Part shown: in pieces, positions 5,026 to 47,576 of the stretch
How positions within the stretch are numbered: the stretch's first letter is position 1
Layout: each line of letters starts with the position of its first letter
Made by a program: the position numbers and the translations under genes
DNA from: Candidatus Nitrosothermus koennekei
GTDB taxonomy: Archaea; Thermoproteota; Nitrososphaeria; Nitrososphaerales; Nitrosocaldaceae
DNA: 64,000 nt
NCBI GenBank assembly: GCA_013538715.1
Contig: JACAFH010000006.1
Location: 1-64,000 of the forward strand
Direction: 5' to 3'
The notes under the pieces: model-generated
The model's database searches: none
What the model saw: only the letters and a program-made list of their open reading frames with translations
Told to the model about the DNA's origin: nothing

Positions 5026-5374
5026 TATCCCTAACGAACAATGGGTTGTATGTTTTATTAAGAACGGTAAGAAAAGGCTTAGAAGATTTTATGCAGCTGG
5101 TTATTATAATGCATATGATAAAGTATTAACATATGCAGAGAAGATGCAATTAGATATATTATGGTTTAAGGAGAAGAGGTTTTGTAATATAAATGCAAGA
5201 GAGTTAGAAGCATTCTGTATCTACTGTAATAGAATGTTTGAGGAAAGTATCTCTATACAATGTCATTGTAATGCAATTCTATGCTCAAGAGAGTGTTATT
5301 ATGCACATATAAAATTTAAGCATAGAGATTATTTCAATAATAATGGTTTCTCAAATGTAATGGCAGAATCGTAG
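5015..5374 (+). CDS. Small zinc-finger protein, function unknown
   Basis: A 119-residue protein translated in overlap with the end of folP (11 bp). The N-terminal half is a small mixed alpha/beta domain. The C-terminal part carries clustered Cys and His residues: FCIYCNRMF, then CHCNAILCSRECYYAHIKFKH. The pattern CxxC-x(n)-CxC-x4-CxxxC-x3-H-x3-H resembles HIT/MYND-type treble-clef zinc fingers that bind two zinc ions and mediate protein contacts. I do not recognise a named family. Its final 46 bp overlap the end of the convergent BNR-repeat gene. Confidence 0.75.
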   Translation: MLDDIPNEQWVVCFIKNGKKRLRRFYAAGYYNAYDKVLTYAEKMQLDILWFKEKRFCNINARELEAFCIYCNRMFEESISIQCHCNAILCSRECYYAHIKFKHRDYFNNNGFSNVMAES

Positions 5375-6609
5375 CTCGGGCTTAAATAGATTTTAGTATT
5401 AATGTTAGAACAAGTATTTATGCATAGTAACTCACTCCATATTGCATATACATTACTTCCATTTGCTATTATCCCTGCTTTATTTATCTCTCCATTTCCT
5501 ATACTAACTTCTTTATCTAAAGTAATACCAGCGTCGTGACTTGCTCTAATCTTGAACTCTTTTGGTTTATTATCACTTACCCATGCCATATATACATTAG
5601 AACCTTCAACGTCCATTCTATACACAAGTATAGTATCATTGCTCACCTCGTGTTTTACAAAATCTTTACCATTAACACTACATGCTATATTTAAACTATT
5701 TACGTCTAACCATGACAAGCATACTAATGGTCCATCAACATCCAATATTGGTAAGGTTGGCTTATCTATGTCTACTATAAATAATTCGTCCCAATTAACT
5801 CCAGCATCTTTACTCTGCATTGTTACTATTCTATTGCCATTATTATTATCAATCCATGCCATATATACATTAGAACCTTCACTCTTTATGCTAGGAAAAC
5901 CGGCATTGTTATCTTTGCTTATTACTATAGCATCACTAAAACTCTTTGCATTGTCATGACTATACCTAAACAATACTTTATGCTTACCATCAACATTCTC
6001 GTGCCATGCTATATATACATTAGAACCTTCAACGTCAATAGATAGAGCACTTGCATCATGACCTGGAGTGCTTATTACTATAGCATCACTAAAACTCTTT
6101 GCATTGTCATGACTATACTTAAATAATATTTGGTAATTAGAGTTGATATATTCTATCCATGCTATATATACTGCAGGTCCTACACTTTTAACTATAGGAT
6201 AATCAAGAAAGAAATTACTTTCTCTGATTATAATATTATGAATATTCTCAATACTCTTTTTACTAAGAATTATCTTAGATGGATGAAAATAATTATCTAT
6301 TGATGCTAAATATACATTAGATCCAGATGCATCTATACTTCTACTTAAGGGAATAGTTGAATATCCATCTATGGTATCTAACGTAAATCTGTTAGGAGTG
6401 CTTGAAGCAAGAATTATATCATTCTTTTCTATCTCTGTCCATGCTATGTATATATTTGCACCACTATCAGTAGCTATTAAACCCGAATTACCTCTATCAA
6501 AACCTTTTATGTTTTTATTAAATAGACTAGATGATCCTAAATATTGGGAGATTATAAATACAGCAATAAGTGCTATTGTTAATAATAGATACCTATTCTG
6601 CATACTCAT
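5329..6609 (-). CDS. Secreted or membrane-anchored BNR/sialidase-type beta-propeller protein
   Basis: A 426-residue protein with an N-terminal hydrophobic segment (residues 6-22, YLLLTIALIAVFIISQYLG) that acts as signal or anchor, so it lies outside the cell. The rest is about seven blocks of roughly 50 residues, each with the phrase GSNVYxAW and a BNR-like Asp-box such as YSHDNAKSFSDAIVIS. These are hallmarks of sialidase-like propellers. I see no catalytic sialidase residues that I could assign, so it may bind rather than cleave glycans or peptides. Parts of the blocks are identical at DNA level. It follows the small leader-like peptide gene by only 16 bp on the same strand. Confidence 0.85.
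   Translation of the reverse strand: MSMQNRYLLLTIALIAVFIISQYLGSSSLFNKNIKGFDRGNSGLIATDSGANIYIAWTEIEKNDIILASSTPNRFTLDTIDGYSTIPLSRSIDASGSNVYLASIDNYFHPSKIILSKKSIENIHNIIIRESNFFLDYPIVKSVGPAVYIAWIEYINSNYQILFKYSHDNAKSFSDAIVISTPGHDASALSIDVEGSNVYIAWHENVDGKHKVLFRYSHDNAKSFSDAIVISKDNNAGFPSIKSEGSNVYMAWIDNNNGNRIVTMQSKDAGVNWDELFIVDIDKPTLPILDVDGPLVCLSWLDVNSLNIACSVNGKDFVKHEVSNDTILVYRMDVEGSNVYMAWVSDNKPKEFKIRASHDAGITLDKEVSIGNGEINKAGIIANGSNVYAIWSELLCINTCSNINTKIYLSPSYDSAITFEKPLLLK
5917..6118. repeat. 49-bp exact direct repeat inside the propeller gene
   Basis: Bases 5917-5965 and 6070-6118 are identical over 49 positions and encode the same propeller segment (YSHDNAKSFSDAIVIS on the minus strand) in two neighbouring blocks. 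Shorter near-copies encoding GSNVYxAW recur at about 5587, 5858 and 6008. Identity at synonymous positions points to recent duplication or gene conversion between blocks. Confidence 0.9.
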
Positions 6610-6625
6610 TCTTATGTTACAAAAC

Positions 6626-6793
6626 TTAAAAATCTTTTCTAGTACATATAGTAATTATGTATTTCTTTAGATTTTCGCTCAAGTTATATGACTCTAATAC
6701 AGTATTAGGATCGTTAAATAACCTCTTTCTAAACGTAGCATCCTTTATAGCCTTCTCAAACATCTCGTTTAGTATAGCATCTTCATTACTCAT
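6626..6793 (-). CDS. Small leader-like peptide (NHLP/Nif11-like), candidate YcaO-TfuA substrate
   Basis: A 55-residue frame, short enough to be missed by usual length cut-offs. Residues 11-38 read as an amphipathic helix with A15-x2-D18-x2-F21-R22-x-R24-L25-x2-D28-P29-x3-L33, the pattern that marks nitrile-hydratase-alpha-like and Nif11-like leader peptides of ribosomally made, modified peptides. The remaining tail (residues 39-55) contains Thr48, Cys50 and Thr51, which could be modified. There is no Gly-Gly cleavage site. It starts 64 bp from the divergent ycaO-tfuA pair and ends 16 bp before the secreted propeller gene. That it is the substrate of YcaO-TfuA is inference; it could instead be a stand-alone helical protein of this fold. 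Confidence 0.65.
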   Translation of the reverse strand: MSNEDAILNEMFEKAIKDATFRKRLFNDPNTVLESYNLSENLKKYIITICTRKDF

Positions 6794-6857
6794 ATGCTTA
6801 ATTTAGTATAACTTATTATATTTCTTTACAAAATGAATTAGATAGAGAGATGATATT

Positions 6858-8153
6858 ATGAGGTTAGAGAGTAGATATAAGGTAGATGGTTCGAGGAGCG
6901 TTGAAGTTAAGGATACTCTAAGAAGAATAGAATCTCTAGCAAAGAATATCGGTGTATCTAGGGTAGCAGATATAACACATTTGGATATCCTAAGAATACC
7001 TAACTATTCTGCAGTATTGCCTGGTACTGAAGATTATATATGGGTCTATAGTGGTAAAGGTCCTACAAAAGCTCATGCAAAGGCTAGTGCGTTGATGGAG
7101 TGTATAGAGAGATATTCATCATTCCCTTCGCGCGGTTTTGATAATAGATTAATAAGAGCAAGTTATGAGCATATGATTAAAGAGTATGGTAAGGATGCAG
7201 TCTTGAGTGTTGATGAGTTAGTAGAACCTCTAAAACTACCTTATAGAGATGATATGGTAATTGATTTTATAGATGGTATAGATCTATTTAATAATGAAAG
7301 AGTCTTTCTTCCTGCTGGCATAGTTTTAAGTAGATATGAACCAAATAATAATACTATAAATCCATTTAAATTATCTCATACTAACGGTTTAGCCTCTGGT
7401 AATGTTATTGAAGAGGCTATAGAACATGCATTATGTGAAGTTATTGAGAGAGATGCCGTCAGTTTAGCAGAGCTTAGATCTAGTGTCTTACAATTTCATA
7501 AATTAAAGATTATTGTAGATAGACTAAACTCGCTTGGTTATAAGATAAGATTTGACGATAATGAGTTTGTAGATGATACGAGTATATTTGATGAGGTAGA
7601 TGTTAGTAATATAAGCATACCATTTGCGAAGTATCTCATTAATAGATTTAAAGAAGAGAACATACCATTACTCATCAAAGATGTAACAAGTGATATAGGC
7701 ATACCTACATTTATAGCAACAAGTGTGCAATGGATTACAGACGATTATGGATATTTGGCTGAGGGACATGGCACACATCCAAATGCTGGAATAGCACTAA
7801 TAAGAGCAATAACTGAAGTATCACAAACTAGAGCAGCAAACATACATGGAGCAAGAGACGATTTAAGGAAAATAGATTATAGAAGAGGCAGCGTAGAGAA
7901 TAAAGCATGGCAGTTTATGCATTCTAATACTAAATCTTTTGAGAGTATTAAGAGTTATGATCATAAGGATATATTAGAAGATATTGAATTCACTCTTTCA
8001 TCGTTACGGAGAGCAGGGCTAAATAAAGCAATAATTGTAGATCTTACAGATAAAGAGCTAAAGATACCAGTGGTAAGGGCTGTAGTTCCTGGCCTTGAGA
8101 CATTTAAGGTAAGTAGAAGTATAATAGGATGGAGAGGTATGAGGTATCTATGA
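6858..8153 (+). CDS. ycaO: YcaO-domain ATP-dependent peptide-backbone modifying enzyme
   Basis: YcaO proteins activate peptide amide oxygens with ATP, giving azolines, thioamides or amidines. This 431-residue protein has the ATP/Mg-binding glutamates in ALMECIERYSS (Glu81, Glu84) and CEVIERDA (Glu194, Glu197), plus AITEVSQTR further on. The C terminus ends WRGMRYL without the Pro-rich PxPxP tail of azoline-forming cyclodehydratases; together with the adjacent TfuA partner this favours a thioamide-type reaction. Methanogens use a YcaO-TfuA pair on methyl-CoM reductase, which this kind of organism lacks, so the target here must be something else. The stop codon overlaps the tfuA start (ATGA). 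Confidence 0.93.
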   Translation: MRLESRYKVDGSRSVEVKDTLRRIESLAKNIGVSRVADITHLDILRIPNYSAVLPGTEDYIWVYSGKGPTKAHAKASALMECIERYSSFPSRGFDNRLIRASYEHMIKEYGKDAVLSVDELVEPLKLPYRDDMVIDFIDGIDLFNNERVFLPAGIVLSRYEPNNNTINPFKLSHTNGLASGNVIEEAIEHALCEVIERDAVSLAELRSSVLQFHKLKIIVDRLNSLGYKIRFDDNEFVDDTSIFDEVDVSNISIPFAKYLINRFKEENIPLLIKDVTSDIGIPTFIATSVQWITDDYGYLAEGHGTHPNAGIALIRAITEVSQTRAANIHGARDDLRKIDYRRGSVENKAWQFMHSNTKSFESIKSYDHKDILEDIEFTLSSLRRAGLNKAIIVDLTDKELKIPVVRAVVPGLETFKVSRSIIGWRGMRYL

Positions 8154-8773
8154 AACCAATAATATTCATTGGTCCAAGTATAAGTAGAGAAAAGGCAGAG
8201 AGTATATTCCCACATGCTGAGTATAGAGCACCCGCTAAGAAAGGTGATATATTAAGGATAGCAACAAGAATGGAGAGCAATATAATAGGTTTGATAGATG
8301 GTGTATTCTTGCAAGACTACCCACCAACCCCAATAGAGATTTATACAGCATTGATGAAAGGAATAAAGATTATAGGTGCTGCTAGTATAGGAGCTGTAAG
8401 AGCTGTAGAGTTGGAGAAGTTTGGTATGATCGGTATAGGAAGTATATATAGACTATATAAAATGGGAAAACTTGATGATGATGATGAGATAGCAGTTACG
8501 TTTACAAGCGATTATAAATTGCAATCTGAAGCTATGATAGATATTAGATATACTTTATATCATGCATATAAGAATAAGATCTTGACTTATGATAAGATGA
8601 AATATCTTCTAAAGATTGCTAAGAATATCTATTTTCCATATAGAACATATGAAGAGATATTTAATAAGGCAAATATAGATGAGAGAGTAATAGAATATGT
8701 TAAGAAGAATAGAAGAAGTCTCAAAGAGAAAGATAGTATAGCATTACTTAATTATCTAAAGCATTATATATGA
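8150..8773 (+). CDS. tfuA: TfuA-like partner protein of YcaO
   Basis: A 207-residue TfuA-family protein, named from trifolitoxin biosynthesis. In thioamide formation TfuA is thought to bring the sulfur donor or allosterically help YcaO. The family signature is clear: PIIFIGPSISREKAESIFP at the start, AGAASIGAVRAVELE-like GAASIGAVRAVELEKFGMIG in the middle, and DDEIAVTF later. I chose the ATG at 8150 because it overlaps the ycaO stop as ATGA and begins the conserved domain; an upstream in-frame ATG at 8129 would add seven residues. The overlap implies translational coupling with ycaO. Confidence 0.92.
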   Translation: MKPIIFIGPSISREKAESIFPHAEYRAPAKKGDILRIATRMESNIIGLIDGVFLQDYPPTPIEIYTALMKGIKIIGAASIGAVRAVELEKFGMIGIGSIYRLYKMGKLDDDDEIAVTFTSDYKLQSEAMIDIRYTLYHAYKNKILTYDKMKYLLKIAKNIYFPYRTYEEIFNKANIDERVIEYVKKNRRSLKEKDSIALLNYLKHYI

Positions 8774-46922: not shown

Positions 46923-47576
46923 TTAATCCCACTTACTCCATGCTGCTGCCCATCTATATGTCCATGTATTTAACTTTGCTCCAAATGCTGCTATTGGAGG
47001 ACACATAACTGCACTAATACCAGCACCTAGTGCTACTGGACTGTTGTAGAATTTACCTACTTGTGGCTCTATTGGAGTCATATATTGCGGTAATGTCGGT
47101 CTTGGGTACTTGAAGGCTATCTCTAATGGATCTACTATTGTCATATAGTTTATCATGTTGAACAATGGGAATGACATTCCTGCTAATGATCCTCCTATTA
47201 ATATTAATGCATGCTTATTCCTATTTGTAGCCCAGTATGCTAGATCTAATAGCATACAGCTTGGTATGAACACTGGCCATCTCATAAAGTCATATGGGTA
47301 ACCTAGTCCACCAATCCATGCCCACATTGCAACCCAACCATAAACCGTCATTATTAAACCATAGTATGTTGCTGTGCCAGGAACACCAGTAAAGAGTAGG
47401 TAATAAACAGCACCTACTACAGTCATGGTAGATAAACCTAGGTTGAATAATACATACGATGTCCATCCCCAATCAGAATAGAATAGATAGTCTCCTGTAT
47501 TGATAACTAATAGCGTTGAATTTACTGCTACTACCACTATGAAGAGATAGTGTACTGTTCGTCTTATCCAGACCAT
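46923..47576 (-). CDS. amoA: Ammonia monooxygenase subunit A
   Basis: Membrane subunit of the copper enzyme that oxidizes ammonia to hydroxylamine, the energy source of this organism. The 217-residue protein is a typical archaeal AmoA: it opens VWIRRTVHYLFIVVVAVNSTLLVINTGDYLF, has YYGLIMTVYGWVAMWAWIGGLGYPYDFMRWPVFIPS and ends NTWTYRWAAAWSKWD, with about six membrane helices. The gene is preceded by amoX on the same strand; amoB and amoC are not in this window. A good TATA box lies just upstream, so it can be transcribed alone. Confidence 0.98.
   Translation of the reverse strand: MVWIRRTVHYLFIVVVAVNSTLLVINTGDYLFYSDWGWTSYVLFNLGLSTMTVVGAVYYLLFTGVPGTATYYGLIMTVYGWVAMWAWIGGLGYPYDFMRWPVFIPSCMLLDLAYWATNRNKHALILIGGSLAGMSFPLFNMINYMTIVDPLEIAFKYPRPTLPQYMTPIEPQVGKFYNSPVALGAGISAVMCPPIAAFGAKLNTWTYRWAAAWSKWD

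Follow-up and report, generated by a model that had tools for sequence, protein, structure and literature searches.

In the 64,000-nucleotide stretch of Candidatus Nitrosothermus koennekei DNA analysed here (the window), a small gene with a 55-residue product (MSNEDAILNEMFEKAIKDATFRKRLFNDPNTVLESYNLSENLKKYIITICTRKDF), called the mini-protein below, lies divergent from a pair of overlapping genes encoding YcaO and TfuA (Table 1). The A/T-rich region between them presumably holds the start sites of both transcripts, and the alternative start of tfuA gives the ATGA overlap with ycaO that is classic for coupling.

Table 1. Features of the ycaO-tfuA locus and of the surrounding window
Feature	Position	Strand	Description
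BNR-repeat propeller gene	5329..6609	-	16 bp downstream of the mini-protein gene; secreted-looking product
Mini-protein gene	6626..6793	-	55 aa; NHLP-clan by similarity; candidate substrate or partner of YcaO-TfuA
Divergent intergenic region	6794..6857		64 bp between the mini-protein gene and ycaO; A/T-rich block; putative start sites
ycaO	6858..8153	+	431 aa; McrA-thioamidation type by similarity; ATP/Mg motif residues intact
YcaO insertion	7494..7598	+	codons 213-247; 35 residues; AOA-specific; absent from 26 methanogen/ANME YcaOs
tfuA	8129..8773	+	overlaps ycaO; possible start 8150
amoA	46980..47531	-	archaeal type

The archaeal amoA identifies the genome as that of an ammonia-oxidizing archaeon (AOA), a member of a group of major nitrifiers; its AmoA is divergent, scoring 310 bits against 355-400 bits in the other AOA tested. 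The first-pass annotation had noted that such archaea lack methyl-CoM reductase (MCR), which was borne out, as McrA (PF02249) had no match in the genome of the window or in the other AOA tested. To our knowledge, MCR is the only proven target of YcaO-TfuA in archaea, and the pair is kept by AOA of the Nitrosocaldaceae, the Nitrososphaeraceae and a third family, all devoid of MCR. In the searched literature, outside which most subscription papers lie, there was no paper proposing a substrate for the AOA pair or describing this small gene, nor one naming both Nitrososphaera and YcaO. Two relatives of the AOA at the order level (G040 and G054) do encode McrA; their YcaO-TfuA genes (L063, L064) adjoin DUF2117 and radical SAM genes, and they would represent a methane- or alkane-type metabolism close to the AOA.

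By sequence similarity, both enzymes appear closest to the families that thioamidate the McrA glycine, at scores below the equivalog cut-offs. YcaO obtained 236 bits with PF02624 and 286 bits with TIGR03266 (cut-off 365), and TfuA 129 bits with PF07812 and 209 bits with NF033432 (cut-off 235). The ATP/Mg motifs of YcaO are intact (SxxxExxER at residues 77-85, ExxER at 194-198 and ExxQxR at 320-325), and adjoining ycaO and tfuA genes with such motifs are the gene content by which a YcaO-TfuA backbone thioamidation system is recognized. The YcaO, the only one in this 1.46-Mb genome, shares an identity of about 60% with the enzymes of Ca. Nitrosocaldus, a member of the same family. It ends in ...GWRGMRYL, without the proline-rich C-terminal PxPxP of cyclodehydratase-type YcaOs from canonical RiPP pathways, and its predicted structure (pLDDT 87) resembles the stand-alone M. 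jannaschii enzyme, with the peptide-bound form 6peu as best match. A segment as long as the AOA insertion is also missing at this position from LynD and MusD, and 28 group-specific positions separate the AOA YcaOs from the 26 methanogen/ANME relatives. Judged from these alignments, the insertion and the group-specific positions fit a changed partner; a distance test revealed no co-variation with the mini-protein specific to the insertion (partial r 0.18, with other segments reaching 0.37).

Across 39 AOA loci, only the mini-protein gene, ycaO and tfuA are conserved, the flanking genes differing freely between clades. Genes for PheRS subunits, aconitase, L15e, an aminotransferase and an Lhr helicase were discarded as lineage-specific housekeeping neighbours. 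The BNR propeller is probably not part of the system either, since its linkage is limited to the Nitrosocaldaceae. Its Nitrosocaldus homologue occupies the same position, after an extra 213-aa secreted-looking protein, and one genome (G056) carries an isolated 160-aa BNR fragment near the peptide that is absent from the other members of its genus examined.

A conserved small gene that accompanies ycaO-tfuA

An open reading frame of 55 codons carries no weight on its own, because such a length is expected by chance in AT-rich DNA (49 frames of at least 40 aa were counted in 14 kb). The mini-protein frame is nevertheless a genuine gene, as indicated by its order-wide homologues, the purifying selection acting on it and its fixed divergent placement. 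Strong matches were found in 73 of the 400 genomes of the order, in all three AOA families that retain YcaO-TfuA. Beyond the AOA, the phylum yielded weak partial matches only, with E between 1e-6 and 0.01 and most of them embedded in longer frames. Comparison of codons between close pairs gave dN/dS values of about 0.05-0.3 (0.41 in the closest pair, with 6 changes), a coding substitution pattern. In an alignment of 40 sequences mean column identity was 58%, with Ala15, Phe21, Arg22, Leu33 and Lys43 invariant.

The first-pass annotation had linked the peptide to YcaO-TfuA, and the link stood up to a survey of the 400 genomes, 79 of which contain tfuA: both genes occur in 72, the mini-protein alone in one, tfuA alone in seven and neither in 320. 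The exceptions are explained by the presence of McrA, by the end of a contig or by an incomplete assembly. The single genome with the mini-protein only is 67% complete; among those with tfuA only, two are the McrA-encoding G040 and G054, four (G112, G139, G157 and G235) have contigs that end at most 325 bp upstream of ycaO or within it, and the last (G214) is 66% complete and comes from a genus where the mini-protein gene is unlinked. Fisher's exact test gave p = 5e-70, a value that overstates independence, given that the distribution may reflect one or two gains or losses: families f1, f2 and f7 have both genes and the AOA of family f9 have neither. The co-presence of the two genes may thus reflect very few evolutionary events.

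Conservation beside the pair was equally clear. In each of the 54 genomes where the mini-protein gene and tfuA lie less than 4 kb apart, the divergent layout is that of the window; among named GTDB genomes the small gene is found upstream of ycaO at 39 of 54 AOA loci and at 0 of 26 methanogen/ANME loci. Eighteen genomes, of which 17 belong to genus g34 and one to g21, keep the mini-protein gene at a separate place, 0.92-1.0 Mb from tfuA in three closed genomes, where it stands alone between genes that by eye look like an antiporter and a glycosylase. A few MAGs of genus g44 (G187, G196 and G231) hold extra unlinked copies (L220, L221, L222, L223 and L225), one of them divided over two frames (L221:1690-1868); contamination of 2-6% in these assemblies may be their source.

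The genomic case for an association between the mini-protein and YcaO-TfuA is therefore strong. Two of the findings that the first-pass annotation had named as fatal to its claim, a peptide not conserved next to the pair in relatives and a non-coding substitution pattern, were looked for and did not appear. It could still be argued that the mini-protein is functionally unrelated, for instance a small regulator inherited beside a pair that acts on some other AOA protein, a view favoured by the small number of independent evolutionary events, by the f9 AOA that live without either gene and by the missing co-variation signal with the YcaO insertion. Against it, all AOA genomes with the pair retain the mini-protein, assembly gaps aside, even when it has moved by about 1 Mb, the trio stays together while flanking genes change between clades, and NHLP-type domains are known YcaO partners (PMC12455567). 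Such an explanation appears distinctly unlikely.

The mini-protein as a possible partner and substrate of YcaO-TfuA

The resemblance to nitrile-hydratase-leader (NHLP) peptides that had been read from the 55-residue frame was supported by profile searches. All 15 family members compared match the NHLP leader models TIGR03793 and NF038399, in every case below the curated cut-offs; NF038399 (Os1348 family) was the best NCBIfam match of the mini-protein (5.6e-6), and a profile of the family matched structurally solved alpha chains of nitrile hydratase with E 1.2e-6. By similarity, the mini-protein would thus belong to the NHLP clan, with all model matches below curated cut-offs. Its predicted structure (pLDDT 90.9) is one compact helical domain, with helices at residues 3-17, 19-27, 29-34 and 40-51 and a C-terminal tail of about four residues. 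Foldseek retrieved DesB, a LigA-type gallate dioxygenase, as top match and, lower down, the proteusin (NHLP) precursor 8tb1, matches that are merely suggestive because all had E > 1. Taken together, the profiles and the model describe the mini-protein as a leader-like domain that is free-standing, without an attached core.

This architecture bears directly on the initial reading of the locus as a RiPP-like, modified-peptide system. In its canonical form, a helical leader would direct modification of a C-terminal core, and a small thioamidated peptide would be released and exported. Membership of the NHLP clan, as indicated by similarity, would suit such a scheme, as would the orphan extra copies in g44 and the Nif11-like precursors described in bacterial TfuA clusters (PMC8120280). 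However, the last helix extends to residue 51 of 55, leaving almost no tail, and neither the alignment nor the model reveals a leader/core division, a hypervariable core or a cleavage motif, conservation running along the whole length. Moreover, no gene for an exporter, a protease or a further tailoring or RiPP enzyme is conserved near ycaO-tfuA across the 39 AOA loci. For these reasons the evidence does not support a canonical RiPP natural product, which we regard as very improbable. The more specific proposal that Thr48, Cys50 and Thr51 form a modified tail had to be abandoned as well. The three residues fall within helix 40-51 or at its end and vary in relatives, with Lys/Asn, Ser/Phe/Ile and variable residues in the alignment.

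Two features weigh against thioamidation of the mini-protein itself: none of its invariant residues is of a kind typical for a modification site, such as a conserved Gly, Cys, Ser or Thr in an exposed tail, and a compact domain nearly devoid of tail is an unusual substrate. The main rival explanation holds that the mini-protein is unmodified and serves in trans, as a targeting or activating subunit through which YcaO-TfuA would thioamidate a different AOA protein. The mini-protein does resemble a leader domain without core, it is kept with the pair even when unlinked, the extra insertion of the AOA YcaO could dock it, and large folded proteins are modified by YcaO enzymes (PMC13063428). On the other hand, no second associated protein emerges, the trio alone being conserved in the neighbourhoods, and almost all genomes contain a single NHLP-like match, so that no other protein tagged with such a domain is visible. 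A role in trans is consequently considered unlikely, though to a lesser degree than the other alternatives.

The reading we prefer, by a slight inclination, is that the mini-protein is a dedicated protein partner of the AOA YcaO-TfuA, and most likely its substrate. A narrower version, tentative and not quite an even prospect, is that the folded NHLP domain itself is the thioamidated product, the substrate having changed from McrA to the mini-protein along with the 35-residue YcaO insertion. Folded NHLP leaders bind a YcaO through tertiary protein/protein contacts (PMC12455567), and the folded protein uL16 is thioamidated by the E. coli YcaO (PMC13063428). By analogy with the leaders, YcaO would dock the folded mini-protein by protein/protein contact, perhaps through the AOA-specific insertion, and would then phosphorylate one backbone amide using ATP. 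TfuA would free sulfide from a thiocarboxylated ThiS-like carrier, and the backbone oxygen would be replaced by sulfur. The genome of the window codes for a member of the ThiS family, and outside high-sulfide niches organisms tend towards thiocarboxylated carriers and TfuA (PMC13063428). In one Nitrososphaeraceae group (L146-L150, L160, L161, L176 and L178; ~3.7-8.8 kb), rhodanese and nitrite/sulfite reductase-domain genes adjoin tfuA, a possible sulfur supply for thioamidation in this single lineage.

In this scheme we infer that the two proteins interact directly, that the mini-protein is modified and at which site, and what the modified product does. The thioamidated mini-protein would be a conserved cellular protein and not a diversified, exported antibiotic. 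It would add to the archaea a thioamide protein other than McrA, and would combine a rare protein thioamide with a leader-like domain that serves as the whole substrate. As such, the mini-protein is put forward as the best candidate yet for the target of the AOA pair, one that is concrete, short, purifiable and found in cultured relatives.

Comparison with known systems

The closest known system is McrA thioamidation (methanogenesis marker 1; TIGR03266/NF033432), which relies on the same enzyme pair. The AOA YcaO is 37-40% identical to the methanogen enzymes and matches the M. jannaschii fold (6peu), and AOA homologues were already placed in the methanogen clade in 2017 (eLife; PMC5589413). 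The AOA differ in having no McrA, in a YcaO that lies below the equivalog cut-off and carries the 35-residue insertion and the 28 group-specific positions, and in the accompanying mini-protein, absent at the 26 methanogen/ANME loci.

With NHLP/proteusin leaders (TIGR03793, PF14407, NF038399) the mini-protein would share the helical domain and the pattern A-x-x-D/E-P-x-FR-x-x-L-x-x-x-P-x-x-x-L, as suggested by the profile similarity and the weak fold match to 8tb1. In contrast to them, it is archaeal, about 55 aa long, below the curated cut-offs and without a core region, and it is paired with TfuA and a YcaO that has no fused RRE. Os1348 of Pseudomonas sp. Os17 is likewise a short, folded member of the NHLP clan, and the whole protein is believed to act as the precursor; it has 85 aa and occurs with acetyltransferase, peptidase and SagB-type genes, the paper naming no YcaO or TfuA (PMC7726476).

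Clusters for thioamidated RiPPs (thioviridamide-like compounds and thiovarsolins) resemble the AOA locus in having YcaO-TfuA beside a small open reading frame, but they possess variable cores and tailoring and export genes. Eight Thaumarchaeota TfuA clusters were recorded in a 2021 survey, with no precursor named in the portion of that source consulted (PMC8120280). Finally, the E. coli system differs in having a YcaO of another group, no TfuA and no small open reading frame as partner (PMC13063428), and what it would have in common with the AOA, should the mini-protein indeed be modified, is the action of a YcaO on a folded protein, uL16 in that case.
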